A stretch of DNA of 64,000 nucleotides, taken from assembly GCA_013141175.1 (NCBI GenBank), contig JABFRN010000001.1, forward strand, positions 1,937,444-2,001,443, written 5' to 3'. Made by a program: the position numbers and the translations under genes. Each line of letters opens with the position of its first letter. The stretch's first letter is position 1. The notes under the pieces were generated by a model. The model had not been told where the DNA came from, searched no databases, and saw only the letters and a program-made list of their open reading frames with translations. This document shows positions 1-19,350 of the stretch, piece by piece. The stretch is from Lysobacter sp. Its GTDB lineage: Bacteria > Pseudomonadota > Gammaproteobacteria > Xanthomonadales > Xanthomonadaceae.

Positions 1-3000
1 GGGTGCGGTGAGCGTGGCGCCGGGTACGCCTGCGGGCACGTACGACGTGACGTATGAGATCTGCGAGACGCTGAACCCGACGAACTGCGACGTTGCGATC
101 GCGACGGTGACGGTGGGCGCGGCGGTGATCGACGCGGTGGACGACACCGGCACGGTGGCGAACGGTGCGACCGGCGGAACGGCGGTGGCGAACGTGCTGG
201 TCAACGACACGCTCAACGGCGTGCCTGCGACGCTGGCGACGGTGGTGATCACGCAGGTGAGCACGACCAACCCGAACGTGACCTTGAACCCGGCGACGGG
301 TGCGGTGACGGTGGCGCCGGGTACGCCTGCGGGCACCTACACGCTGGTCTATCAGATCTGCGAACAGCTGAACCCGACGAACTGCGACACCGCGACGGTG
401 ACGGTGACGGTGGGCGCGGCGGTGATCGATGCGGTCGACGACGACTACAGCGCGACGCCGGTGAACGGCGCGAGCGGTGGCAGCACGCCGAGCGTGCTGG
501 TCAACGACACCCTCAACGGCAATCCGGTGACGGTGGGCGCTGGCGGCAACGTGACGCTGACCCCCGGAGCGGCGCCTGCGCCGACGGCCGGCAGCATCAC
601 GATGAACGCGGACGGCACGATCACGGTGGCGGCGGGTACGACGGCGGGCGTGTACACGTATCCGTACACGATCTGCGAAGTGCTGAACCCGACGAACTGC
701 GACACGGCGACGGCAACGATCGTCGTCAGTGCGGCGGTGATCGATGCGGTGGACGACACCGGCACGGTGGCGAACGGTGCGGTGGGCGGCGTGGGCATCC
801 CGAACGTGCTGGTCAACGACACGCTCAACGGCGCTCCTGCGACGCTGGCGACGGTGACGATCACGCAGCTGGCGACGACCAATCCTGGCGTGACGCTGAA
901 CCCGGCGACGGGTGCGGTGAGCGTGGCGCCGGGTACGCCTGCGGGCACGTACGACGTGACGTATGAGATCTGCGAGACGCTGAACCCGACGAACTGCGAC
1001 GTTGCGATCGCGACGGTGACGGTGGGCGCGGCGGTGATCGACGCGGTGGACGACACCGGCACGGTGGCGAACGGTGCGACCGGCGGAACGGCGGTGGCGA
1101 ACGTGCTGGTCAACGACACGCTCAACGGCGTGCCTGCGACGCTGGCGACGGTGGTGATCACGCAGGTGAGCACGACCAACCCGAACGTGACCTTGAACCC
1201 GGCGACGGGTGCGGTGACGGTGGCGCCGGGTACGCCTGCGGGCACCTACACGCTGGTCTATCAGATCTGCGAACAGCTGAACCCGACGAACTGCGACACC
1301 GCGACGGTGACGGTGACGGTGGGCGCGGCGGTGATCGATGCGGTCGACGACGACTACAGCGCGACGCCGGTGAACGGCGCGAGCGGTGGCAGCACGCCGA
1401 GCGTGCTGGTCAACGACACCCTCAACGGCAATCCGGTGACGGTGGGCGCTGGCGGCAACGTGACGCTGACCCCCGGAGCGGCGCCTGCGCCGACGGCCGG
1501 CAGCATCACGATGAACGCGGACGGCACGATCACGGTGGCGGCGGGTACGACGGCGGGCGTGTACACGTATCCGTACACGATCTGCGAAGTGCTGAACCCG
1601 ACGAACTGCGACACGGCGACGGCAACGATCGTCGTCAGTGCGGCGGTGATCGATGCGGTCGACGACACCGGCACGGTGGCGAACGGTGCGGTGGGCGGCG
1701 TGGGCATCCCGAACGTGCTGGTCAACGACACGCTCAACGGCGCTCCTGCGACGCTGGCGACGGTGACGATCACGCAGCTGGCGACGACCAATCCTGGCGT
1801 GACGCTGAACCCGGCGACGGGTGCGGTGAGCGTGGCGCCGGGTACGCCTGCGGGCACGTACGACGTGACGTATGAGATCTGCGAGACGCTGAACCCGACG
1901 AACTGCGACGTTGCGATCGCGACGGTGACGGTGGGCGCGGCGGTGATCGACGCGGTGGACGACACCGGCACGGTGGCGAACGGTGCGACCGGCGGAACGG
2001 CGGTGGCGAACGTGCTGGTCAACGACACGCTCAACGGCGTGCCTGCGACGCTGGCGACGGTGGTGATCACGCAGGTGAGCACGACCAACCCGAACGTGAC
2101 CTTGAACCCGGCGACGGGTGCGGTGACGGTGGCGCCGGGTACGCCTGCGGGCACCTACACGCTGGTCTATCAGATCTGCGAACAGCTGAACCCGACGAAC
2201 TGCGACACCGCGACGGTGACGGTGACAGTGGGCGCGGCGGTGATCGATGCGGTCGACGACGACTACAGCGCGACGCCGGTGAACGGCGCGAGCGGTGGCA
2301 GCACGCCGAGCGTGCTGGTCAACGACACCCTCAACGGCAATCCGGTGACGGTGGGCGCTGGCGGCAACGTGACGCTGACCCCCGGAGCGGCGCCTGCGCC
2401 GACGGCCGGCAGCATCACGATGAACGCGGACGGCACGATCACGGTGGCGGCGGGTACGACGGCGGGCGTGTACACGTATCCGTACACGATCTGCGAAGTG
2501 CTGAACCCGACGAACTGCGACACGGCGACGGCAACGATCGTCGTCAGTGCGGCGGTGATCGATGCAGTGGACGACACCGGCACGGTGGCGAACGGTGCGG
2601 TGGGCGGCGTGGGCATCCCGAACGTGCTGGTCAACGACACGCTCAACGGCGCTCCTGCGACGCTGGCGACGGTGACGATCACGCAGCTGGCGACGACCAA
2701 TCCTGGCGTGACGCTGAACCCGGCGACGGGTGCGGTGAGCGTGGCGCCGGGTACGCCTGCGGGCACGTACGACGTGACGTATGAGATCTGCGAGACGCTG
2801 AACCCGACGAACTGCGACGTTGCGATCGCGACGGTGACGGTGGGCGCGGCGGTGATCGACGCGGTGGACGACACCGGCACGGTGGCGAACGGTGCGACCG
2901 GCGGAACGGCGGTGGCGAACGTGCTGGTCAACGACACGCTCAACGGCGTGCCTGCGACGCTGGCGACGGTGGTGATCACGCAGGTGAGCACGACCAACCC

Positions 3001-3435
3001 GAACGTGACCTTGAACCCGGCGACGGGTGCGGTGACGGTGGCGCCGGGTACGCCTGCGGGCACCTACACGCTGGTCTATCAGATCTGCGAACAGCTGAAC
3101 CCGACGAACTGCGACACCGCGACGGTGACGGTGACGGTGGGCGCGGCGGTGATCGATGCGGTCGACGACGACTACAGCGCGACGCCGGTGAACGGCGCGA
3201 GCGGTGGATCGACGCCGAGCGTGCTGGTCAACGACACCCTCAACGGCAATCCGGTGACGGTGGGCGCTGGCGGCAACGTGACGCTGACCCCCGGAGCGGC
3301 GCCTGCGCCGACGGCCGGCAGCATCACGATGAACGCGGACGGCACGATCACGGTGGCGGCGGGTACGACGGCGGGCGTGTACACGTATCCGTACACGATC
3401 TGCGAAGTGTTGAACCCGACGAACTGCGACACGGC
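1..3435. repeat. 909-bp tandem repeat array (about 3.8 copies, continues upstream)
   Basis: The sequence repeats with an exact 909-bp period (for example the GTG at 8 recurs at 917). Each unit encodes three related modules of about 101 residues. Copies differ at only scattered bases, such as the codon around 1658 and changes near 2226, 2566 and 3205, so they are recently amplified or kept alike by gene conversion. The left end is outside the window, so copy number is a minimum. Confidence 0.95.
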
Positions 3436-6400
3436 GACCGCGACAGTGGTGGTCAGCGCCGCAGTGATCGACGCGGTGGACGACAACCTCGGTCCGGTGG
3501 TCGGCGCGAGCGGCGGCAACACGCCGAGCGTGCTGGTCAACGACACGTTGAACGGTGGTGCGGTGACGGTGGGCGCGGGTGGCAACAGCACCCTGACTCC
3601 GGGCGCGGCGCCGACGCCGGCAGCGGGTTCGATCACGATGAACCCGGACGGCACGATCACGATCGCGCCGGGCACGACCGCAGGCACGTACACGTATCCG
3701 TACACGATCTGCGAAGTGCTGAACCCGACGAACTGCGACACGGCGACGGCCACGATCGTCGTCAGTGCGGCGGTGATCGACGCGGTCGACGACAGCGGCA
3801 CGGTGGCCAACGGCGCGAACGGCGGCGTGGCGGTGCCGAACGTCCTGGTCAACGACACGCTCAATGGCGTGCCGGTGACCCTGGCGACGGTGACGCTGAC
3901 GCAGGTCTCGACAACCAATCCGAACGTGACGCTGAACCCGGCGACGGGTGCGGTGACGGTGGCCCCGGGCACTCCGGCGGGCACCTACACGCTGGTGTAC
4001 CGGATCTGCGAAATCCTGAACCCGAACAACTGCGACACCGCGACCGTGACGGTCACGGTGGGTGCGGCGGTGATCGACGCGGTGGACGACAACCTCGGTC
4101 CGGTGGTCGGTGCGAGCGGCGGCAATACGCCGAGCGTGCTGGTCAACGACACGTTGAACGGTGGTGCGGTGACGGTGGGCGCGGGTGGCAACAGCACCCT
4201 GACTCCGGGCGCAGCGCCGACACCGGCAGCGGGTTCGATCACGATGAACCCGGACGGCACGATCACGATCGCGCCGGGCACGACCGCAGGCACGTACACG
4301 TATCCGTACACGATCTGCGAAGTGCTGAACCCGACGAACTGCGACACGGCGACGGCCACGATCGTCGTCAGCGCGGCGGTGATCGACGCGGTCGACGACA
4401 GCGGCACGGTGGCCAACGGCGCGAACGGCGGCGTGGCGGTGCCGAACGTCCTGGTCAACGACACGCTCAATGGCGTGCCGGTGACCCTGGCGACGGTGAC
4501 GCTGACGCAGGTCTCGACAACCAATCCGAACGTGACGCTGAACCCGGCGACGGGTGCTGTGACGGTGGCCCCGGGCACTCCGGCGGGCACCTACACGCTG
4601 GTGTACCGGATCTGCGAAATCCTGAACCCGAACAACTGCGACACCGCGACCGTGACGGTCACGGTGGGTGCGGCGGTGATCGACGCGGTGGACGACAACC
4701 TCGGTCCGGTGGTCGGTGCGAGCGGCGGCAATACGCCGAGCGTGCTGGTCAACGACACGTTGAACGGTGGTGCGGTGACGGTGGGCGCGGGTGGCAACAG
4801 CACCCTGACTCCGGGCGCAGCGCCGACACCGGCAGCGGGTTCGATCACGATGAACCCGGACGGCACGATCACGATCGCGCCGGGCACGACCGCAGGCACG
4901 TACACGTATCCGTACACGATCTGCGAAGTGCTGAACCCGACGAACTGCGACACGGCGACGGCCACGATCGTCGTCAGCGCGGCGGTGATCGACGCGGTCG
5001 ACGACAGCGGCACGGTGGCCAACGGCGCGAACGGCGGCGTGGCGGTGCCGAACGTCCTGGTCAACGACACGCTCAATGGCGTGCCGGTGACCCTGGCGAC
5101 GGTGACGCTGACGCAGGTCTCGACAACCAATCCGAACGTGACGCTGAACCCGGCGACGGGTGCTGTGACGGTGGCCCCGGGCACTCCGGCGGGCACCTAC
5201 ACGCTGGTGTACCGGATCTGCGAAATCCTGAACCCGAACAACTGCGACACCGCGACCGTGACGGTCACGGTGGGTGCGGCGCCGATCGATGCGATCGACG
5301 ACAGCTTCGGTCCGGCCAACGGTGCGACGGGCAACCCGAATGCCGGCAATGCGTACACCAACGACACCCTCAACGGTGTTCCGGTGAACGTGGCCGACAT
5401 CACCGGCTCGGTGACGACGCCGGCGACGCCGATCAACGGCGGCCCGGTGCCGGTGCTCGATCCGCAGACCGGCAACGTGAGCGTGCCGGCCGGAACGCCG
5501 GCGGGCACCTACACGATCGTCTACAGGATCTGCGAGAACCTGAACCCGACCAACTGCGATTCGGCAACGATCACGGTGACGGTGGACGCCGCGCCGATCG
5601 ATGCGGTGGACGACGCCTTCCCGCCGGTCAACGGCGTGGGCGGCGGCTCGACCGCTTCGGTGCTGGTCAACGACACGCTCAACGGCGTGGCGGTGAACCC
5701 GGCCGATGTGACCCTGACGCCCGGCACCGCGCCGACGCCGGGCAGCGGCAGCATCGTGATGAATCCGGACGGCACCATCACGGTGGGACCGAATACGGAA
5801 GCGGGCACGTATCAGTATCCGTACACGATCTGCGAAGTGCTGAACCCGACCAACTGCGACACCGCGATCGCGACCGTGGTCGTGTCCGCGCAGCCGGGCC
5901 TGACGATCGACAAGATCGCCGGCACCCCGACCGCGAACTCGGCCGGCGGCACGATCCCGTACAGCTTCGTGGTGACCAATACCGGCAACGTGACGGTGAC
6001 GGGCCTGACGATCAACGACGCGCAGCTCAGCGCGGCGGCGGTCTGCCCGACCACCACGCTGGCGCCGGGCGCGACCACCACGTGCACGGGTTCGCACACC
6101 ATCACCCAGGCGGACGTGGATGCGGGCACGGTGGTCAACACCGCGACCGCGACCGGTACGCTGCCGCGCGGCGGCACCACGGTGTCTCCGCCGGACAGCA
6201 CCACCACGACGATCGTGCAGACCCCGGCGATCACCGCAGTGAAGACGGCCACGCTGACCACCGACGGCGGTCTGCCGGGTCTTGCCGATCCGGGCGATGT
6301 CATCACCTACAACGTCACCGTCCGCAACAGCGGCAACGTGACGCTGAGCAGTCTGGTGGTGAACGACAGCTTCGAAGGCGGCGCCTCGACCACGCTGAAC

Positions 6401-8311
6401 TGCGCGCCGACCACGCTGGCCCCGGGCGCCACCGCCACCTGTGCGAGCTACACGCACACGGTGACCGTGGCCGAAGCGGCGGCGGGCGGCACGCTCGAGA
6501 ACGTGGTCACGGCCACGGCGACCTCGTCGACCTCGACCCAGACGGTGACCTCGACCAGTACGGCCGTGGTCAACGTCAACGGCGAGCCGGCGGCGATCCG
6601 CATCATCAAGACCGCCAATCCGCGCGACGTGAAGGTCGGCGATCTGGTCCGCTACACGCTGACGATGCAGAACACCAGCATCACGCCGATGGTCGATGGC
6701 ACGCTGATCGACACCCCGCCTGCGGGCTTCACCTACGTCGAAGGTTCGCTGGCGGTGGTCGATGCCGACAACGCCGGTCGTCTGGTCGGGACCTACCCGA
6801 TCCGGGTCGACCAGCTCGACATCGCGGGCGAAGGCAGCGCCACCATCACCTACCTGCTGCGCGTCGGCGCGGGTGTCCGTCCGGGCGTCCACACCAACAG
6901 CGCGTATGTCGAGGACAACGGTGAGGTGGTGTCCAACGTCGCCACCGCGAACGTGCAGATGACGTCCGATCCGCTGATGGACGAGTCGCTGATCGTCGGT
7001 ACGGTCTTCAGCGACCGCGACGGCGACCGTTGGCAGGATACGGCCGGCCTCAGCGGCGTCCGCGTCCAGGGCGGCTTCGCGCCGGAGGCCTACGTGCCGA
7101 ATTCGACCACGGTCGATCGCGGCGCCGGCCCGACGCCGGAGCCCGATGCCAGCTCGCCGATGCTCCACGGCATCGACGTGGGCGACATCACCGCGCGCCA
7201 GTCCGAGGCCGATCCCATCGCCAAGCACACGGTGGTCATCCGCCAGACGCTGCGCGAGCTGCGCTTCACCGACGACTTCGCGCTGACCACCGCGCAGGGC
7301 GTCACGGTGCGCATGAGCGCCGACGGCAAGACCTCGGTCGACAAGGCCGGCGATGCGGCCAAGGGCCTCAACGCCGCCGAGCCGACGGTGGAACGCCGCG
7401 TCAGCCAGGTGGCCGACGGCTATGTCGTCGACTACGTGATCGCCAACGCCGGCATCGATGAGCGCGGCATCCCGGGCGTGCGTATCGCCTCGGTGGAAGG
7501 TCTGCTGATGGAAACCGACCAGTACGGTCGTTATCACCTGACGGGTGTGGACGGCGGTCGCGAACGCGGTCGCAACTTCATCCTCAAGGTCGATCCGGCC
7601 ACGCTGCCGCCGGGCAGCACGCTGACCACCGACAATCCGCTGGTGAAGCGCGTGACCCCGGGCGTCCCGACCCGCTTCGACTTCGGCGTGAAGATGCCGG
7701 TGGCGATGCTGGAAGGCGGCGCGCAGACGGTCGAGATGGAGCTGGGCGAAATCGTCTTCCACGCCGAAAGCGCCAAGCTCCGCGAGGAATACCTGCCGGT
7801 GATCGAAAAGATCGCCGAGCAGGTGCGCAGCCACGGCAACGGTGAAGTGGTGCTGGCCGCCAATGGCGAAACCCAGTCGCTCGCCTACGATCGCGCCAAG
7901 GCGGTGCAGACAGCGCTGCTGGGCATGTTGAGCAAGGACGAGGCGCAGGCGGTGAAGATCAGCCTGCGCAGCGACCTGGCCGATCCCGACAGCACGCTGG
8001 TGTCGCTGGGCGAGTCGCCGGTGCTGGGCATGGTGCTGTTCGATACCGACCAGTCGGCGATCAAGCCCGAGTTCGAGCCGGTCATCGCCAAGGTTGCGGC
8101 GGATATCGAGCGATTGCGAGGTGGCGTGGTCGGCATCATCGGCCATGCCGACAAGCGCGGCTCGGCGGAATACAACGTCGCGCTGGGCATGCGTCGTGCG
8201 AAAGCGGTGTACGAGGCGATCGCTGCGAAGCTCAGCCCCGAGGTGCGCAGCAAGCTGCGCGTGGATTTCAGCGACAACCCGACCGCCCCTGTCGGCATTC
8301 GTGGTCAATAA
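2..8311 (+). CDS. Giant repetitive surface protein with DUF11-like and OmpA-like C terminus (5' end outside window)
   Basis: The reading frame is already open at the window edge, so the true start and signal peptide lie upstream; about 2,769 residues are visible. Residues up to about 1,960 are tandem Ig-like modules of about 100 residues. Each carries a V-L-V-N-D-T-L-N-G motif and a Cys pair in ICE-x-LNP(T/N)NCD. Three diverged DUF11/TIGR01451-type domains follow (nt about 5890-6960), then an SdrD-B-like segment (nt about 7470-7690) and two OmpA-like domains (nt about 7740-7960 and 8020-8260). The second OmpA-like domain holds GHADKRGSAEYN, the usual peptidoglycan-binding signature. Inference: a long cell-surface fibre or adhesin whose C terminus binds peptidoglycan in the periplasm. 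The barrel gene starts 7 bases after the stop, so the two are probably one operon. Specific ligand or role unknown. Confidence 0.85.
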   Translation, partial: GAVSVAPGTPAGTYDVTYEICETLNPTNCDVAIATVTVGAAVIDAVDDTGTVANGATGGTAVANVLVNDTLNGVPATLATVVITQVSTTNPNVTLNPATGAVTVAPGTPAGTYTLVYQICEQLNPTNCDTATVTVTVGAAVIDAVDDDYSATPVNGASGGSTPSVLVNDTLNGNPVTVGAGGNVTLTPGAAPAPTAGSITMNADGTITVAAGTTAGVYTYPYTICEVLNPTNCDTATATIVVSAAVIDAVDDTGTVANGAVGGVGIPNVLVNDTLNGAPATLATVTITQLATTNPGVTLNPATGAVSVAPGTPAGTYDVTYEICETLNPTNCDVAIATVTVGAAVIDAVDDTGTVANGATGGTAVANVLVNDTLNGVPATLATVVITQVSTTNPNVTLNPATGAVTVAPGTPAGTYTLVYQICEQLNPTNCDTATVTVTVGAAVIDAVDDDYSATPVNGASGGSTPSVLVNDTLNGNPVTVGAGGNVTLTPGAAPAPTAGSITMNADGTITVAAGTTAGVYTYPYTICEVLNPTNCDTATATIVVSAAVIDAVDDTGTVANGAVGGVGIPNVLVNDTLNGAPATLATVTITQLATTNPGVTLNPATGAVSVAPGTPAGTYDVTYEICETLNPTNCDVAIATVTVGAAVIDAVDDTGTVANGATGGTAVANVLVNDTLNGVPATLATVVITQVSTTNPNVTLNPATGAVTVAPGTPAGTYTLVYQICEQLNPTNCDTATVTVTVGAAVIDAVDDDYSATPVNGASGGSTPSVLVNDTLNGNPVTVGAGGNVTLTPGAAPAPTAGSITMNADGTITVAAGTTAGVYTYPYTICEVLNPTNCDTATATIVVSAAVIDAVDDTGTVANGAVGGVGIPNVLVNDTLNGAPATLATVTITQLATTNPGVTLNPATGAVSVAPGTPAGTYDVTYEICETLNPTNCDVAIATVTVGAAVIDAVDDTGTVANGATGGTAVANVLVNDTLNGVPATLATVVITQVSTTNPNVTLNPATGAVTVAPGTPAGTYTLVYQICEQLNPTNCDTATVTVTVGAAVIDAVDDDYSATPVNGASGGSTPSVLVNDTLNGNPVTVGAGGNVTLTPGAAPAPTAGSITMNADGTITVAAGTTAGVYTYPYTICEVLNPTNCDTATATVVVSAAVIDAVDDNLGPVVGASGGNTPSVLVNDTLNGGAVTVGAGGNSTLTPGAAPTPAAGSITMNPDGTITIAPGTTAGTYTYPYTICEVLNPTNCDTATATIVVSAAVIDAVDDSGTVANGANGGVAVPNVLVNDTLNGVPVTLATVTLTQVSTTNPNVTLNPATGAVTVAPGTPAGTYTLVYRICEILNPNNCDTATVTVTVGAAVIDAVDDNLGPVVGASGGNTPSVLVNDTLNGGAVTVGAGGNSTLTPGAAPTPAAGSITMNPDGTITIAPGTTAGTYTYPYTICEVLNPTNCDTATATIVVSAAVIDAVDDSGTVANGANGGVAVPNVLVNDTLNGVPVTLATVTLTQVSTTNPNVTLNPATGAVTVAPGTPAGTYTLVYRICEILNPNNCDTATVTVTVGAAVIDAVDDNLGPVVGASGGNTPSVLVNDTLNGGAVTVGAGGNSTLTPGAAPTPAAGSITMNPDGTITIAPGTTAGTYTYPYTICEVLNPTNCDTATATIVVSAAVIDAVDDSGTVANGANGGVAVPNVLVNDTLNGVPVTLATVTLTQVSTTNPNVTLNPATGAVTVAPGTPAGTYTLVYRICEILNPNNCDTATVTVTVGAAPIDAIDDSFGPANGATGNPNAGNAYTNDTLNGVPVNVADITGSVTTPATPINGGPVPVLDPQTGNVSVPAGTPAGTYTIVYRICENLNPTNCDSATITVTVDAAPIDAVDDAFPPVNGVGGGSTASVLVNDTLNGVAVNPADVTLTPGTAPTPGSGSIVMNPDGTITVGPNTEAGTYQYPYTICEVLNPTNCDTAIATVVVSAQPGLTIDKIAGTPTANSAGGTIPYSFVVTNTGNVTVTGLTINDAQLSAAAVCPTTTLAPGATTTCTGSHTITQADVDAGTVVNTATATGTLPRGGTTVSPPDSTTTTIVQTPAITAVKTATLTTDGGLPGLADPGDVITYNVTVRNSGNVTLSSLVVNDSFEGGASTTLNCAPTTLAPGATATCASYTHTVTVAEAAAGGTLENVVTATATSSTSTQTVTSTSTAVVNVNGEPAAIRIIKTANPRDVKVGDLVRYTLTMQNTSITPMVDGTLIDTPPAGFTYVEGSLAVVDADNAGRLVGTYPIRVDQLDIAGEGSATITYLLRVGAGVRPGVHTNSAYVEDNGEVVSNVATANVQMTSDPLMDESLIVGTVFSDRDGDRWQDTAGLSGVRVQGGFAPEAYVPNSTTVDRGAGPTPEPDASSPMLHGIDVGDITARQSEADPIAKHTVVIRQTLRELRFTDDFALTTAQGVTVRMSADGKTSVDKAGDAAKGLNAAEPTVERRVSQVADGYVVDYVIANAGIDERGIPGVRIASVEGLLMETDQYGRYHLTGVDGGRERGRNFILKVDPATLPPGSTLTTDNPLVKRVTPGVPTRFDFGVKMPVAMLEGGAQTVEMELGEIVFHAESAKLREEYLPVIEKIAEQVRSHGNGEVVLAANGETQSLAYDRAKAVQTALLGMLSKDEAQAVKISLRSDLADPDSTLVSLGESPVLGMVLFDTDQSAIKPEFEPVIAKVAADIERLRGGVVGIIGHADKRGSAEYNVALGMRRAKAVYEAIAAKLSPEVRSKLRVDFSDNPTAPVGIRGQ
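3463..5280. repeat. 606-bp tandem repeat array (three copies)
   Basis: Immediately after the 909-bp array, a two-module unit (beginning with DDNLGPVV and DDSGTVAN) repeats three times with an exact 606-bp period; the AAC of the first module lies at 3485 and again at 4091. The units keep the 303-bp module size of the first array but are a separate expansion, again almost identical in DNA. Confidence 0.93.
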
Positions 8312-12201: not shown

Positions 12202-14103
12202 ATGGTAAGGGTCAAGCGGGACGGCGGTAGTGTGCGGTTGGGCGCGATGGCGGCGCTGGCCACGGCGTTGTGCGGTGCGCTGGCAATGCCGGCGCAGGCG
12301 CGCGTGCCCGGAAAGGACGGTGCGTTCACGGTCTCGGCCGCCAACACCACCGTCAATGCCACCACCACGCTGACCGCCGGTGCGACTTCCGGGGCGACCA
12401 CCATCACGGTGGGCAGCGCTGCGGGTATCACCGCCGGCGACGTGCTGATGCTGCATCAGGCCCAGGGCGCCACGATCAGCACCGCCAACGCCAACACCTA
12501 CGGCGCGGTGACCGCGCTGGGCAACGCCGGGCGCTACGAATACGTCAGCGTGGCCTCGGTCAGCGGCAACACCATCACCCTCGGCACCGCCTGCGACACC
12601 ACGCCGCTGCGCTTCGCCTACAGCGGCGGTGCGCAGGTCGTGCGCGTGCCCCAATACAGCAGCCTGACCGTGAATGCGGGCGCGTCGATCGTGCCGGCGG
12701 CATGGAACGGCAGCACCGGCGGCATCGTCGCGGTCATCGTCGATGGCACCGCCACCGTGAACGGCTCGATCAACGCCAACGGTCGCGGCTTCCGGGGCGG
12801 CGCGATCGAAAACGACACCACGGATCCGGCCACCGACGTCACCGCCTATGTCGCCGCGACGACCGTCGACGGCGGCGAAAAAGGCGAAAGCATCGCCGGC
12901 AGCCAGGCCACCTACGATGGCTTGGGTGGGCGCTACAACCGCGGTGCGCCCGCCAATGGCGGCGGCGGCGGCAATGCGCACAATGCCGGCGGCGGCGGCG
13001 GCGCCAACGGCGGCAACGTGGCCACCTGGAATGGCCAGGGCGTGCCGGATACCAGCCTTGCCGGCTGGGTCACCGCGTGGAACATCGACGGCACCCTGAC
13101 CGCAACCACCAATTCGTCCGGTGGCGGTCGCGGCGGCTACACCTATGCGTCCGCCAACCAGAATGCGCTGACCCGCGCGCCCGGCGCGACCCAATGGGGC
13201 GGCAACCTGCGTCGCGAGCGCGGCGGCCTGGGCGGACGTCCGCTGGCCAACAATCCCAGTACGACCGGCGATACGCGCCTGTTCTTCGGCGGTGGCGGCG
13301 GTGCGGGCGACGGCAACAACGGCGCGGCCAGCGCCGGCGCCAACGGCGGTGGCCTGGTGTTCGTGATCGCGACGGCCGTGGCCGGCAGCGGCAACCTGCA
13401 GGCCAACGGCGCTGCGGCAACACCGACTGTTCCCGGCCACAACGATGGTCCCGGCGGCGGCGGCGGCGGCGGCTCGGTGGTGCTGGTCGCTCCCGGCGCC
13501 GGCGCGCTCAGCTTCGCGGCCAGCGGCGGCCAGGGCGGCAACCAGCTGATCACCGTGGTCGAATCCGAAGGCCCGGGCGGCGGCGGTGGCGGCGGCTTCA
13601 TCGCGTCTCCGGCGGGGACCGGCACCATCGCCGGTGGCGTCAACGGCACCACGTCATCCAGCGCGCTGACCGAGTTCCTTCCCAACGGCGCGACCCGTGG
13701 CAACACCGGCAACGCTGCGACCGCGCCATCGCTGGCGAATGTGCCGATCTGCAACGTGCCGAATCTCGCGGATCTCAGCATCACCAAGACCAATACGCCG
13801 GTGTCCGGTCCGAACGACCAGGCCGCCGACACCGTGGTCTCGGGCGCGCAGACCACCTACAGCGTCATCGTCACCAACAGTGGGCCCGGCCCGGCGATCA
13901 ATGCGGTGATCCAGGATGCCCCGGCAGCCGGTTTGACCTGCCCGCCCGCCAACGCGGTCACCTGCACCAGCGCTGCCGTCGGCGCCTGTCCAGCGGGCCC
14001 CTTGACCGTGGCCAACCTCACCGCAGGCGTCACCCTCGGCACGCTCCCGGCCACGGCAGGCAGCAACACCATCACCTTCAGTTTCAGCTGCACCGTACAG
14101 TAG
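12202..14103 (+). CDS. Secreted glycine-rich surface protein with C-terminal DUF11 domain
   Basis: About 633 residues. The ATG at 12202 was chosen because GAGGA lies 7 bases upstream and a clear Sec signal follows (VRVKR, a hydrophobic run, then MPAQA-R). An in-frame ATG at 12139 is possible but would bury the signal. The middle (nt about 12,950-13,620) is full of Gly-Gly-Gly-Gly runs and reads like a beta-helix with glycine loops. The last 110 residues form a DUF11/TIGR01451-type domain beginning ADLSITKTNTPVSGPND and ending FSFSCTVQ. A close paralogue follows 38 bases downstream. Role unknown; an extracellular adhesive or matrix protein is an inference. Confidence 0.8.
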   Translation: MVRVKRDGGSVRLGAMAALATALCGALAMPAQARVPGKDGAFTVSAANTTVNATTTLTAGATSGATTITVGSAAGITAGDVLMLHQAQGATISTANANTYGAVTALGNAGRYEYVSVASVSGNTITLGTACDTTPLRFAYSGGAQVVRVPQYSSLTVNAGASIVPAAWNGSTGGIVAVIVDGTATVNGSINANGRGFRGGAIENDTTDPATDVTAYVAATTVDGGEKGESIAGSQATYDGLGGRYNRGAPANGGGGGNAHNAGGGGGANGGNVATWNGQGVPDTSLAGWVTAWNIDGTLTATTNSSGGGRGGYTYASANQNALTRAPGATQWGGNLRRERGGLGGRPLANNPSTTGDTRLFFGGGGGAGDGNNGAASAGANGGGLVFVIATAVAGSGNLQANGAAATPTVPGHNDGPGGGGGGGSVVLVAPGAGALSFAASGGQGGNQLITVVESEGPGGGGGGGFIASPAGTGTIAGGVNGTTSSSALTEFLPNGATRGNTGNAATAPSLANVPICNVPNLADLSITKTNTPVSGPNDQAADTVVSGAQTTYSVIVTNSGPGPAINAVIQDAPAAGLTCPPANAVTCTSAAVGACPAGPLTVANLTAGVTLGTLPATAGSNTITFSFSCTVQ

Positions 14104-14141
14104 CCGTCGTGTTTACCGTCAGCCTCAGGAATCCAGCGTAC

Positions 14142-16092
14142 ATGCACGTCAACTCATCTCTCCGTGGTTCCGCGGCACGGTTGCGCAAGGCGGCGTTCAC
14201 GGCCTTCGCTTTCGGTGCAGTGGTCGTGTCGGGTATCGGCGCCGCCAACGCCCAGGTCTGCGCGCTTCCGGGCAGCAACGGCGACGCCACCATTTCCGGC
14301 ACGGTCAACACCTACTGGACAGCGGGCACCGGCACCTACAACAACGGCAGCACCACGATCGCGCTCAGCGGCCAGCGCGGCGCCGCCGCGACGTTGGCGG
14401 CGGGCGATCTGGTGCTGGTCATCCAGATGCAGTGCGCGAACCTCAACACCGCCAACGGCCTGAATTACGGCGATGGCGCAGGCGGCGAACCCGCGTCCGG
14501 CTATACCGATCCCGCCGGCAGCTGCCTCGCCGGGCGCTACCAGTTCGTGCGTGCCGGTACCGGCACCAGCAATGCCGTGCTGAATCTCACCGGTTCGCCG
14601 CTGACGGCCACCTACGTGCAGGCCAATGCCACCGCGACCGCCGGGCGCCGCACCGTGCAGATCATCCGCGTGCCGCAGTACGCGAATCTCACGTTGGGCG
14701 GCACCGTCACCGCTGCGGATTGGGACGGCAACAGCGGCGGCATCGTCGTGCTCGATGCGGCGTTCACCCTGAACTTCAATGGCCAGGCCATCAATGTCGA
14801 TGGTCTGGGTTTCCGCGGCGGCGCCGGTCGCAGCCGTTCCGTCGACGACGCCGTCGAACGCTTCCGTTGGGACGACGACACCCGCCACGCCGTGAAGGGC
14901 GAGGGCATCGCCGGCACACCGCGATTCGTCAGCCTCAAGCGCGATCCGAACTCCGGCGCCACCGCCGGCTTCACCGATCTCGGCGCGGCCTGGGGCGGGT
15001 ATCCCACCGGCACCGCCAGCACCGGCGACTTCGCCCGTGGCGCGCCCGGCAACGCCGGTGGCGGCGGGCGCGTACTGGGACGCCGGCAGCGACAACGGCG
15101 GCGGCGGCGGCGGCGGCAACGGCGGCGCGGGTGGTCGCGGCGGCGCCGGTTGGCGCAGTGCCGGCTACGCGGGCATCCTGGCCAACTACAGCAACCTCAC
15201 GGACAAGAAATGGGGCTTCGGCGGCACCGGCTTCCTCGGTGCGGGCGTCGCCCGGTTGGTGATGGGCGGCGGCGGCGGTGCCGGCGACAACAACGTCAAC
15301 AGCCAGGCTGTCGAATCCAGCGGCGCCGCAGGCGGCGGGATCGTGATGGCGCGCGCGGTCACCTTCACCGGCGCCGGCAGCATCAGCGCGCGCGGTGCGC
15401 GTGCCGCCGACAACCCGACCAACGACGGTGCGGGCGGCGGCGGTGCCGGCGGCAGCGTGGTGGCGGTCGCCACCACATGGTCCGCCACGCTCAATGTCGA
15501 TGTCCGCGGCGGGCGCGGCGGCGACACCTGGCTCACCGGCACTGCGGCGCATGGCGCTGGCGGCGGCGGCGCCGGCGGTGTGGTGGTCACCAGCAGTCTC
15601 GCCACCACCACGCTCACCGGCGGCGTGGCCGGCACCACCACCACGGCCGATACCCCGCCCGGCGGCGCCAATCACGGCGCGCAGGGTGGCGCCAACGGTG
15701 TGGCGCAGGTCATCACCCCGGCCGCCGATACGCCCGGCAGCGATGTCGGCCGCACCTGCAAGGCGGACATCCGCATCACCAAGACCAATACGCCCGGCGT
15801 GAACGGCGAGGTGGATCAAGCCGCCGATATCGTGAATTCGGGTGCGGCCACGGTCTACACCATCACTGTGACCAATACGGGCCCCAAGCCCGCGAACAAC
15901 ACGCGCGTCAACGACCCGCTGCCCACGGGCCTGAACTGTCCGACCGCCACCTGCACGGCGTCTGGCGGCGGCGTCTGTCCTGCATTGACCGGGGCCGCAC
16001 TGGTCGCCGCGCTGCAGGGTGCTGGCGTGACGGTGCCGACCTTGCCTGTCAGCGGCAGCGTCAACTTTCTGTTGAACTGCACCGTTCAATAG
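14142..16092 (+). pseudogene. Glycine-rich DUF11 surface protein, frameshifted paralogue
   Basis: It starts with MHVNSSLRG and a Sec signal cleaving after ANAQ. The N-terminal half reads in one frame to about 15065, then turns into Arg-rich nonsense. The expected glycine-rich sequence (GAYWDAGSDN and onward) resumes in the +1 frame from about 15067 and runs to a stop at 16092. Dropping one G from the GGG at 15066-15068 restores a protein of about 649 residues ending LLNCTVQ. The rest shows no decay, so a sequencing error or very recent mutation in the GGC-rich tract is likely. Domain order matches the upstream paralogue: glycine-rich middle, then a DUF11 tail beginning ADIRITKTNTPGVNGEVD. Confidence 0.8.
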
Positions 16093-16177
16093 TGATTTCC
16101 GATAGGAATATCGAAATCCGATAGTCGTTATCTATATCAAAAGCGATGGCGCGCGCTCGATGCGCGCCATCCCTCGA

Positions 16178-16460
16178 CACCGTGAATCTCGAGCACGGCC
16201 ACGCTGTGCGCCATCACCGTGACCAATCTGGCCGAAGCCGCGAACAACGCGGTCATCGCCGACCTCTTGCCCAGAACCTTGATCTGCACACCGCGACCTC
16301 TGCAGCCGCTGCCTGCGCTTGAGGATGTCGCGCTGCCCGCATCGTTGCATGGCGCCTGTGCGACGGTGCCGACATCGCCAGCAACGACATCAATTTTCTG
16401 TTGGATCCCGCTGTTCGATCAGATTGTCGGCTGGAATCGCGAAATTCGATAGTCGCACTC
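16178..16460 (+). pseudogene. Decayed duplicate of a DUF11 gene 3' end
   Basis: This stretch aligns by eye with 15831-16120, the 3' end of the preceding gene. The phrase ITVTN is kept, as are AANNAVIADLLPR (against PANNTRVNDPLPT) and the DNA of the terminal FLLNCTVQ, including the AT-richer bases after its stop. It has no start codon, and the end has lost its frame. It is a tandem duplicate that has broken down; the 639-base gap to the next gene is otherwise empty of convincing genes. Confidence 0.75.
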
Positions 16461-16640
16461 TATCCATAAGCGGTGATGCGCCGCTCCGATGCGACGCCAT
16501 CGCGAAAACCCCGGTTTTTGCGGGAAAAAAAGCCAACCTGTCAGTAGTGACAGTGCAAGCGCGACGACACGCGCGCTTATCTTGCATGCCGGGGCCACTG
16601 GTTCACCGGCCCTTTTCAGCGCGCGATGGATCACCAATGC

Positions 16641-16666
16641 GCTCTGTCATCGATGGATGGCAGAGC
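16641..16666. other. Inverted repeat in the leader of the GEVED-domain gene
   Basis: Eleven-base arms (16641-16651 and 16656-16666) with one mismatch enclose a four-base loop, 65 bases before the start at 16732. It could fold in the mRNA leader or be an operator. No known riboswitch consensus was matched. Confidence 0.4.
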
Positions 16667-16731
16667 GTGTTTGCGTAACGTGCCGATGAGGGTTGGCGGC
16701 CAGGGAAGCGAGACGCAAGACGGGGATTGTC

Positions 16732-19350
16732 ATGACAGCAAGTCGGAAGTGGGTACAAATCGCGCGTGCGCTGACGCTGCGCAGCGGGTGTCGTGCAGCA
16801 AGGTCGCTGCGGTCGATGTTCGTTGTCGCAGTCGTATCGGGCGCATGCATCGCGACCGCGCACGCCGCGCAGGTGCAGCACCTCGATACCCAGACCGCCA
16901 CGGCCACCGGTGCGGGTGCGGCCGGCACGCCCACCATCGCCAGCTTCAATATCCCCAGCGGCAAGAACCGCGTGCTGTTCATCTGGCCGACGTTCGAGCG
17001 CGACCACTGCTCGCCGGCCGACGGCACCGGTGGTCTGTGCAACAGCGGCAATACTGCCGGCACTGGCCTGGGCGACAACTATCCCGAACCTCGGGTCGGC
17101 ACCCCACCGGCCACGACCAGCAACAACCAGCTCACCGCGCGCATCGTCGGCCCCGGCGGCACCATCAACAAGCAGAACGCGCTGGTGATCGGCGGCACGC
17201 CCAGCGGCGATACCCGCTTCATCCGCATCAGCACCTCGCCGTCCGGCTCCCCGGCCGGTACGGCGTTCTTTGGCGTCGATTCGTTCCACATCGTGCTGTT
17301 CGAGAACGAGATCAATACGCTGCTCGGCGGCGCGGCCTCGGGCACCGTCACCATCACCCTGCCGGATACCGTCGCGCCCTCCAATGCGGGCGACGACGCG
17401 CTGCTGATCGCCTCGGTCTACCAGAACGTCGAACAGACACCGACCGGCTTCGTCCGCAATGCGACAGGTGTCGCGCAGGCGGTGGCCGGTGTCGATCCAG
17501 CCGGCAACTACACGATCACAGTAGCGGCCTACGACGCTGGCCAGGCTCCGGACGAAGCCGACGACGGCAAGCTGGTGATGGGCGCCAATGCCACCACCGC
17601 CGGTTTCGCCGTGCCCGCTGGCCATGTGGCTCTGGCGACGCTATCCACCACCAATGCTGGCGGCACCTTCGATACCCCCAGCGGCGGCGTCACCAATGAA
17701 CCGAACGGTATGTCCGGCGGTGCCTGGTTCCGCAACGGCGGCGCCACGCCCGCCAGCCTGTACGCGCTGACCTCGGCGGGCACCGCAACCCCTGCGGTCT
17801 ATGGCGGCACCACCTCCTCGTTCCTGCTCGAATCCGACAACGCCGACGTCGGCGACGCGCCGATCACTTACGGCAATCCCACGCATACGATCACGGGCAT
17901 CCGCCTCGGCGCCAGCGTCGATGCCGACGCCAGCCTGCTCAACAACGCCACCGCCACCGGCGACGACGTCAACAACACCGACGACGAAGACGGCGTGACC
18001 CTCACGCCGCTGCTGCCGACCGGCGAAACCACCATCGTGCCGACCAGCATCCAGAACGGCAGCGGTTTCCTCAACGTCTGGTTCGACTGGAACGCCGACG
18101 GCGACTTCAACGATGCCGGCGAGCAGATGATCACCAACCAGGCGGTCGCGGTCGGCGTGACCAACCTCAACATCGCGGTGCCGGTCACCGCCATCATCGG
18201 CCCGACCTTCGCGCGTTTCCGGGTCTGCACCAACAACACCGCGCTCGACAACTGCTCCACGCCGGCCGGCACCGTTCAGAGCGGCGAGGTCGAGGACTAC
18301 CAGTTCACCGTGTCGCGCAAACTGCTGCTGCGCAAGACCACGCTCGGCGGCGTCGGCGGCGCCTTCGGCTACACCTTGACCAACACGGTGCAGACCACCG
18401 GCACGGTGACCACCACGGTCGTCAACACGCCGACCCAGGTCGATGGCGACACCGCCAGCACCGCGACGCTGGCCTACACCATCATCGCGCCGACCACGGC
18501 GGTCACCGTCGACGAAAGCACCTTGCCGGCGGGCTGGTCGTTCACCGACGCGACCTGCGTCAACGCCGCCGGCACCACCGTCGGCAGCCTGAGCGGTTCC
18601 ACCTACACCCTGACCGGTGCCGAGATCGGCGCCAGCGTCAGCTTCACCTGCACCTTCACCAATACGAAATTGCCGATCCTGCGTTTGCAGAAGGCGCTGC
18701 CGAACGGCCGTTTCGTCGCGACCGACCAGTTCGCGTTGACCATCGCCGGCACCGGCGGGCCCGCAACGGTCACCACGACAGGCGCAGGCACGACGGCCAC
18801 GGGCATCGCCACGCTCAGCCCCGGCGCGCTCGGCGCGGTCTACACGCTCAGCGAAGCGGGCGCGGCCGGCGCACTGCTGACGAACTACGCGACCATCTGG
18901 GCCTGCACCAACGCCCTCACCGGCGGACAGACACCCAACGGCAGCGGCACCAGCTTCAGCATCACTGCGGTCGCGGGCGACGATCTGACCTGCACGCTCA
19001 CCAACACCCGGAACAACCAGGCCGACCTTCGTCTGACCAAGACCAACACACCGGGCCTCAATGGCGAGGTCGATCAGCCGGCGGACACGGTGGTCTCCGG
19101 CACCACCACCAGTTACAGCATCACCGTCACCAACAACGGCCCCGATGCCGCCAACGGCTCGGTGCTGGCCGACCCGGCGCCGACCGGGCTCACCTGCACC
19201 ACCGCGAGCTGCACCGCAGCGGGTGGCGCGGTATGCCCGGTACCGACCGGCGCGGCACTGGTCACGGCGCTGCAGGGCGCGGGCGCGACCCTCCCGACCC
19301 TGCCCAACGGCGGCTCGGTGACGGTGACCCTGACCTGCACGGTGCAGTGA
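16732..19350 (+). CDS. Secreted surface protein with GEVED, Cna-like and DUF11 domains
   Basis: About 872 residues. The ATG at 16732 follows GGGGAT; a long N-region (RKWVQIARAL, RSGCRAARSLRS) precedes a hydrophobic signal ending AHAAQ. Residues about 30-380 form a lectin-like all-beta region of unknown family. Residues about 380-525 match the GEVED domain: DVGDAPITYG near the start, WFDWNADGDFND in the middle, and SGEVEDYQF at the end. Two prealbumin/Cna-B-like domains follow (KLLLRKTTLGG and LRLQKALPNG). The last 110 residues are a DUF11 domain beginning ADLRLTKTNTPGLNGEVD and ending LTCTVQ, close to the tails of the two upstream genes. Third member of the locus family; function unknown. Confidence 0.8.
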   Translation: MTASRKWVQIARALTLRSGCRAARSLRSMFVVAVVSGACIATAHAAQVQHLDTQTATATGAGAAGTPTIASFNIPSGKNRVLFIWPTFERDHCSPADGTGGLCNSGNTAGTGLGDNYPEPRVGTPPATTSNNQLTARIVGPGGTINKQNALVIGGTPSGDTRFIRISTSPSGSPAGTAFFGVDSFHIVLFENEINTLLGGAASGTVTITLPDTVAPSNAGDDALLIASVYQNVEQTPTGFVRNATGVAQAVAGVDPAGNYTITVAAYDAGQAPDEADDGKLVMGANATTAGFAVPAGHVALATLSTTNAGGTFDTPSGGVTNEPNGMSGGAWFRNGGATPASLYALTSAGTATPAVYGGTTSSFLLESDNADVGDAPITYGNPTHTITGIRLGASVDADASLLNNATATGDDVNNTDDEDGVTLTPLLPTGETTIVPTSIQNGSGFLNVWFDWNADGDFNDAGEQMITNQAVAVGVTNLNIAVPVTAIIGPTFARFRVCTNNTALDNCSTPAGTVQSGEVEDYQFTVSRKLLLRKTTLGGVGGAFGYTLTNTVQTTGTVTTTVVNTPTQVDGDTASTATLAYTIIAPTTAVTVDESTLPAGWSFTDATCVNAAGTTVGSLSGSTYTLTGAEIGASVSFTCTFTNTKLPILRLQKALPNGRFVATDQFALTIAGTGGPATVTTTGAGTTATGIATLSPGALGAVYTLSEAGAAGALLTNYATIWACTNALTGGQTPNGSGTSFSITAVAGDDLTCTLTNTRNNQADLRLTKTNTPGLNGEVDQPADTVVSGTTTSYSITVTNNGPDAANGSVLADPAPTGLTCTTASCTAAGGAVCPVPTGAALVTALQGAGATLPTLPNGGSVTVTLTCTVQ

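Follow-up and report, generated by a model that had tools for sequence, protein, structure and literature searches.

Why do three neighboring genes of a Lysobacter sp. end in one and the same C-terminal domain, and what might that domain do for the proteins that carry it? These genes lie in the window that we analyzed, a stretch of 64,000 nucleotides from one contig of the genome. The earlier note on this DNA had described them as three proteins with different bodies and a shared DUF11 tail ending in C-T-V-Q, and had proposed that the tail is a sorting or secretion signal. Following up on that note, we found that the tail is a truncated DUF11 domain and that the strand it lacks is encoded, in the same genome, at the N terminus of a giant neighboring protein.

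The Locus and Its Tip Proteins

The shared tail was confirmed. In each of the three products (tip proteins 1–3, Table 1) a DUF11 match lies within the last ~112 residues, and the tails score 25.0, 38.5, and 38.9 bits against PF01345, for a cut-off of 24.6. Relative to tail 1, identity is 54% for tail 2 and 50% for tail 3. The bodies turned out to be less diverse than described, since only that of protein 3 is of a different type (GEVED, SpaA_4, and SpaA_3 by Pfam), whereas bodies 1 and 2 are related, both matching AgmC_N (NF047640), albeit below its cut-off. NCBIfam matches on the window proteins were limited to B_ant_repeat, AgmC_N, and a weak ThermolysLepto. The terminal C-T-V-Q holds for all three window tails (stop codons at 14101–14103, 16090–16092, and 19348–19350), but these letters are a local trait, the commonest ending in the wider family being C-x-V-[N/Q/P/D].

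Table 1. Features of the locus, in window coordinates
Feature	Position	Strand	Basis or remark
Giant OmpA-anchored repeat/DUF11 stalk protein, 3' part	1..8311	+	ORF; DUF7507, DUF11, and OmpA matches
Large outer-membrane beta-barrel protein, 1236 aa	8318..12028	+	ORF; constant neighbor of the giant
Tip protein 1: AgmC_N-like Gly-rich body and truncated DUF11 tail, end SFSCTVQ	12202..14103	+	
Open (truncated) DUF11 domain of tip protein 1	13759..14100	+	Pfam match
Tip protein 2: body type as in protein 1, frameshifted, tail end LLNCTVQ	14142..16092	+	
Open DUF11 domain of tip protein 2	15754..16089	+	Pfam profile 8–84 of 114
Decayed remnant of a fourth tail domain, internal stop codon	16168..16395	+	Tail search of the genome
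Tip protein 3: GEVED, SpaA_4, SpaA_3, and truncated DUF11 tail, end TLTCTVQ	16732..19350	+	Start set at the ATG at 16732
Open DUF11 domain of tip protein 3	19012..19347	+	Pfam profile 10–84 of 114

The whole open frame of the giant amounts to 6,222 aa and starts upstream of the window, at about G000:C1:1927086. This frame carries long, near-identical repeats (window positions 1–8311; also locus L192), apt for recombination and for assembly breaks. A frameshift in a Gly-rich stretch of gene 2, near 15060–15070, leaves the signal peptide and the tail in different frames; the homologue of gene 2 in locus L006 is a single open frame. The frameshift may reflect decay, phase variation, or a sequencing error. 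Judging from the decayed fourth tail domain, which separates gene 2 from gene 3, the set of tip genes seems to be in turnover.

Distribution and Conserved Residues of the Tail

In its own genome (4.16 Mb), only the three tails and the decayed copy matched, a fifth match having an E-value of 0.08. One scan of species genomes yielded 49 tail loci, in Lysobacteraceae (including Lysobacter, Luteimonas, and Pseudoxanthomonas) and in alphaproteobacteria (including Erythrobacter, Sphingorhabdus, and Hyphomonas), and some tail match was found in 79 of 149 family genomes. One genome, G015, has 14 tail matches, part of them checked as terminal.

The distinct domain copies in 84 loci comprised 112 terminal ones and 21 others, three of the latter being fragments; the share lying at most eight residues from a stop codon (112/133) is biased upwards, as terminal tails were the search query. 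The last residue of the terminal copies is most often N (39), Q (34), or P (22), and 12 of the 112 extend five or six residues further. All 112 have a Cys in the final (C-x-V) strand, and the Cys pair is likewise present in all of them. Lys10, Asp54, Cys62, and Cys109 are invariant over 93 aligned rows. Across the terminal copies the Lys is kept in 111/112 and the Asp in 110/112; some loci had been found by patterns that include this Lys, and the 47 copies matching neither pattern, counted apart, gave 46/47 and 45/47.

A second class of truncated DUF11 ending, devoid of C-T-V-Q, was observed just upstream of donor giants (see below) in L216, L240, L243, and L248, on open frames of 726–765 aa. 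A divergent tail lacking CTVQ and truncated alike stands just upstream of the donor giant in genomes G046, G016, G134, and G091.

The Tail Is a DUF11 Domain That Stops before Its Asn Strand

The Pfam DUF11 match reaches the C terminus in 10 of the 17 tails scanned, ending at profile position 84 (nine tails) or 88 (one) of 114. In the other seven (protein 1, L013, L016, L024, L026, L029, and L035) it does not: the match of window tail 1 also ends at profile position 84, yet stops 23 residues short of the C terminus, that of L026 stops at position 63, L013 and L035 have no DUF11 match, and for L016, L024, and L029 the best DUF11 match belongs to a copy other than the tail. Mid-protein copies, by comparison, run on to profile position 111–113 (four copies) or 106 (L024). 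The segment absent from the tails is the one bearing the motif TNTATV.

This segment matters for the chemistry of the family. According to the available text of PMC12617251, DUF11 has been renamed CLIPPER after structure 9IFR, in which Lys715 and Asn806 are joined by an isopeptide bond and Asp748 is the presumed catalyst; the survey described there found that the triad positions are not universally conserved across DUF11. A sequence search of the PDB with tail and mid-protein copies gave chance-level matches only, none of them to 9IFR, and the triad was therefore placed through the family alignment and the published residue numbers. Lys and Asp are present in the tails, which lack the Asn strand and with it a complete domain having Lys, Asp, and Asn in one chain. 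In the aligned mid-protein copies, on the other hand, Lys, Asp, and Asn occur in 11/11, and there is no Cys in the strand that closes the tails.

The earlier note had held that finding the tail often in the middle of proteins would speak against a terminal signal. Mid-protein copies do occur (21/133), yet the ten that could be aligned in full all continue into the Asn strand missing from the terminal copies. We had also considered that the last residue of the tail might be the isopeptide Asn, an idea dropped on seeing that mid-protein copies carry the Asn one strand later.

An AlphaFold2 (AF2) model of the lone tail domain of protein 3 had a pLDDT of 92, with the last strand (residues 102–111) constituting the C terminus. 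A Foldseek search with this tail returned nothing at E ≤ 0.001; the best match was 2x9z, and 9IFR ranked third with an E-value of 0.04.

The Missing Strand Opens the Giant Protein

Straight after its signal peptide, the giant of our genome begins with an orphan strand, NAVNSATITPPATVTDPNNANNSATDSDAI (G000:C1:1927299-1927388, upstream of the window). This candidate donor strand is unique in the genome at E 1e-12, the only other match having an E-value of 1.7. When we read the N termini of tip proteins 1, 2, and 3, no donor strand was seen on them; the genome has one donor for three tail genes. Two alphaproteobacterial tail proteins have mature N termini like ...TNTATVTAPSG...

Using mid-protein copies alone, we built a donor model and ran it on all loci, keeping matches preceded by a signal-like stretch. 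It returned 14 hits: the 13 that scored above 19 bits each corresponded to the N terminus of a giant or of a tail-locus protein, and the remaining hit was weak and on the reverse strand. The donor of our own giant, found by reading its N terminus, was missed by the signal-stretch filter.

We then compared 46 readable giants, having dropped those whose N termini were unreadable (contig end or masked) and L228, a region lacking a giant. The donor followed the signal peptide in 27 of 28 giants from genomes with truncated tails, versus 0 of 18 from genomes that have the barrel gene and no intact tail (Fisher 7e-12, the genomes being related, so that p-values overstate independence). The sole miss, a second giant of G070, begins with a tip-like body instead. 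Both states occur within genus g29, where G029 has tail and donor and G124 neither; terminal tails were confirmed by sequence also in G029, G046, and G053.

The association was also counted in other ways. Among the 28 are giants from G134 and G091, where the divergent truncated tails were noticed after the donor had been seen; counting these genomes as tail-less gave a Fisher value of 1.2e-9. With a score of at least 9 bits as the sole criterion, the figures became 24/28 vs 0/18 (2.6e-9), the top score of the 18 being 1.7 bits. Both G138 donors were called by eye, an insertion lowering their scores to 8.5 and 0.8 bits at best. We also repeated the search of the 18 donor-less barrel genomes, using the tail model and the divergent tail at E ≤ 0.001: the tail model found some match in 15, which in 14 lay exclusively within long frames and at a distance from the C terminus, and no terminal tails were detected at this threshold except for a remnant in G125. 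Treating G125 as a tail genome changed the counts to 27/29 vs 0/17 (Fisher 9.8e-11).

In G125 (L317, G125:C2:84500-92400), a short ORF beside the barrel fuses a signal peptide to the latter half of a tail. It has neither the body nor the half bearing the Lys, and the adjoining giant has no donor, which suggests that the tail decayed once its partner had been lost.

Tail and Donor Fit on One Domain Model

On a model of complete copies, 93/93 tails end at positions 109–117 (66 of them at 112), while the donors free of insertions (20/20) start at 115–121 and end at 141–147, with the Asn at 122. The pieces in our genome obey the same arrangement, its tails ending at position 112 and its donor spanning 120–147, again with the Asn at 122. 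Two proteins of one genome carry complementary pieces of the domain, as expected for a split pair.

Appending the donor of our giant to its own tails raised their scores by about 24 bits each, from 110.0 to 134.6, from 106.3 to 130.7, and from 89.7 to 114.0. Shuffled donors (50 for each tail) reached at most 116.3, 113.9, and 94.7 bits, respectively, below the real donor.

Whole Counterparts and Linker Proteins

Body types that elsewhere bear tails make up the N-terminal region of giants without a donor in G124 (52% over 412 aa), G229 (42% over 420), G133 (52% over 469), and G328 (43% over 434), and of the second giant of G070 (45% over 317). In G124 and G229, a DUF11 domain that has all three of Lys, Asp, and Asn comes after the N-terminal body. 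Such fusion of body and stalk extends to donor giants as well: a tip-body match was found in 11 of 19 donor-less giants and in 11 of 16 donor giants tested, and in G065 (41% over 411) and G117 (56% over 315) a tip-like body stands right behind the donor. As such matches occur in both kinds of giant alike, bodies and stalks have been widely exchanged, and the split form is cut inside a junction domain that is found whole elsewhere.

Some proteins combine a donor N terminus with a tail C terminus (in L024, 8108–10315; in L040, 10314–12500; and in G234). These linker proteins are encoded between a plain tail protein and a donor giant.

The Barrel Protein and Its Association with the Tail

The protein encoded next to the giant had no Pfam family above cut-off, no usher match in the NCBIfam and Pfam searches, and no PDB match by sequence up to E 10. 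Its AF2 model shows many antiparallel strands at low confidence (pLDDT 63, pTM 0.39), and Foldseek retrieved assorted outer-membrane barrels at low TM with this low-confidence model, SprA being among them at TM 0.10–0.16.

The earlier note had suggested checking whether the linked barrel gene always accompanies the tail. Over 149 family genomes, counting only strong tails (E ≤ 1e-15) and strong barrels (19 of the 68 barrel matches were weak and had been set aside), we obtained 32 genomes with both, 2 with the tail only, 17 with the barrel only, and 98 with neither. Of the two tail-only genomes, G033 has only mid-protein repeats, and G019 is a true exception. The latter encodes two terminal tail proteins (L189, 8649–10637; L190, 9267–10487), and we found in it no barrel and no donor; it is either an exception or a remnant.

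Among 398 genomes of the phylum, a barrel match was found in 57 (near full length in 22) and a tail match at E ≤ 1e-10 in 9. Six of these nine genomes, whose tails run up to a stop codon, each have a barrel match as well (a weak one in G509); the others (G299, G539, and G370) have mid-protein or interrupted tail copies and no barrel match. For 14 of the 49 named loci the sequence retrieved includes a barrel; the rest are in many cases tails away from the barrel or short contigs. In Lysobacteraceae, and also in L028, the giant comes first, then the barrel, then the tails; the alphaproteobacterial loci L024, L038, and L040 start with the tails, followed by the giant and the barrel. In regions picked for their lack of a strong tail, the giant adjoins the barrel or is fused with it in 20/20 cases; a tail did turn out to be present in one of these regions (L187). 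A single open frame of 2079 aa in L174 (L174:3-6239, genome G389) matches both the C-terminal region of the giant and the barrel, apparently representing fused partners.

Searches of the tip proteins against NCBIfam and Pfam revealed no match to a T9SS CTD family. The hydrophobic C-terminal helix with a basic end that typifies PEP-CTERM is absent as well: AF2 models the C terminus as a beta strand, and no CTERM model matched. We also considered the tip proteins as T11SS cargo and dropped the idea, because the 25 ‘DUF11’ counts in the available part of PMC12282271 are nearly all DUF1194.

Discussion

Starting from what is observed, namely the truncation, its complement, their co-occurrence, and the gene order, we infer that a DUF11/CLIPPER domain is split over two proteins. 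The tail of the tip protein would be the larger half, with the reactive Lys, the helper Asp, and a Cys pair that may form a disulfide; the remainder of the domain, a stretch of about 30 residues that contains the Asn, would be supplied by the giant immediately behind its signal peptide. Outside the cell, the N-terminal strand of the giant would insert into the open tail and complete the domain, after which an isopeptide bond would probably link Lys and Asn. The far end of the stalk could in this way receive any one of several alternative tip proteins, and the OmpA domain would hold the stalk at the cell wall, the barrel presumably serving for passage of the stalk through the outer membrane and the assembly possibly acting as an adhesin. 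In some alphaproteobacteria, where a middle protein has both a donor and an open domain, tip, linker, and anchored stalk could form a chain. We consider docking of the tip proteins onto the anchored stalk by domain completion to be probable; that it comes together with a Lys–Asn isopeptide bond is a reading towards which we lean slightly.

Several results tell against docking. The lone tail folds with a pLDDT of 92 in the AF2 model, so the donor may be dispensable for folding; G019 has tails without barrel or donor; the second giant of G070 and the giant beside the G125 tail remnant lack a donor; one donor would have to serve three tail genes in our genome; body-like stretches occur in donor giants too; and in seven of the 17 tails scanned the Pfam match does not extend to the C terminus. 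Docking might also occur by hydrogen bonds only, the strand of the giant completing the open tail as in chaperone-usher pili. Such a mode would rest on the same complementarity of tail and donor, and a disulfide of the invariant Cys pair (112/112) may take the place of the isopeptide bond in locking the open domain. We nevertheless regard it as unlikely, because the tail Lys and Asp and the donor Asn (the latter read by eye) have been kept despite being split over two proteins, when the triad positions are not universally conserved in DUF11 at large, judging from the available text of PMC12617251. The conservation of Lys and Asp in the tails could, on the other hand, serve the fold instead.

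A type IX–like arrangement, where the barrel reads the tail as a C-terminal secretion or sorting signal and the donor on the giant is incidental, seems to us quite improbable. The extreme C-terminal position on many bodies would suit it, as would the genome counts (tail with barrel 32, without 2) and the adjacency of barrel, giant, and tails in both Lysobacteraceae and alphaproteobacteria, in differing orders. However, the constant neighbor of the barrel is the giant (20/20 regions), not the tail; the presence of the tail follows that of the donor; bodies of these kinds are also seen in tail-free giants; and many barrels have no accompanying tail. Since, in addition, the tail is an incomplete DUF11 whose missing strand sits on the giant, the type IX–like part of the earlier proposal is unsupported. 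The proposal is otherwise partly right: the conserved C terminus does occur on many bodies and is tied to the barrel locus, and its role in sorting would probably be one of surface attachment. The least probable explanation is that the tail is just a lineage-specific DUF11 ending and the strand of the giant a relic of an old gene split, with no interaction today. Folding of the lone tail in AF2 and the persistence of two tails in G019, where no partner was found, would agree with this; the distribution of the donor (27/28 vs 0/18) argues against it, as do the near-invariant Lys and Asp, the invariant Cys pair, and the Asn retained over two classes of Pseudomonadota.

Domain completion between tip and stalk has several relatives among known systems. 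Conserved C termini on different bodies are found in the type IX secretion CTD and in PEP-CTERM proteins; compared with these, the tail is an incomplete DUF11 domain with its complement elsewhere, and it ends in a strand rather than in a membrane helix. In SpyTag/SpyCatcher and like pairs, an isopeptide domain is split so that a terminal strand joins the rest in trans. Such tag/catcher pairs are man-made and derive from CnaB-type domains, whereas the putative pair described here, likewise a split isopeptide domain, is natural, belongs to DUF11 (CnaA-like), and has the Asn on the tag.

The closest structural counterpart is the CLIPPER domain 9IFR from Acinetobacter silvestris B9T28_05395, which, going by the accessible portion of PMC12617251, belongs to the same Pfam family and shares its Lys and Asp with the tails. 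As presented in that portion (PMC12617251), the adhesin combines a GEVED-like N-terminal region, a CLIPPER stalk, and an OmpA-like anchor, the layout of tip protein 3 and the giant taken together. Its domain is whole, however, with the bond within one chain (PMC12617251, same portion), while here the domain is cut before the Asn strand, which sits on another protein. In chaperone-usher pili, as summarized in the accessible part of PMC9715654, an Ig-like C-terminal domain short of a strand is completed by the N-terminal strand of the next protein; at our locus the barrel has no usher match, isopeptide residues are present, and large bodies and a giant stalk replace the small repeated pilins. 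Archaeal threads of Saci_0406, described in the same part of PMC9715654, join donor-strand complementation to a proposed inter-subunit isopeptide bond, as we propose here, but that bond runs from the alpha-amino group of Asp24 to Asn57 two subunits away, and no split Lys–Asp–Asn domain is involved.

In the literature searched, whose reach mostly stopped short of subscription papers, we found no natural pair from a split DUF11 domain. Tag/catcher pairs obtained by cutting isopeptide domains are a laboratory tool. On sequence grounds, we find it somewhat more plausible than its negation that the system is a natural form of enzyme-free ligation in Gram-negative bacteria, with autocatalytic isopeptide domains split into an N-terminal tag and a C-terminal catcher, and with interchangeable tips, plus serial linkers in some species, being clipped covalently to an anchored giant stalk. 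If true, this would give Gram-negative cells a way to attach separately made surface proteins without a sortase, and it would explain why a single genome can have many tail matches, such as the 14 in G015.
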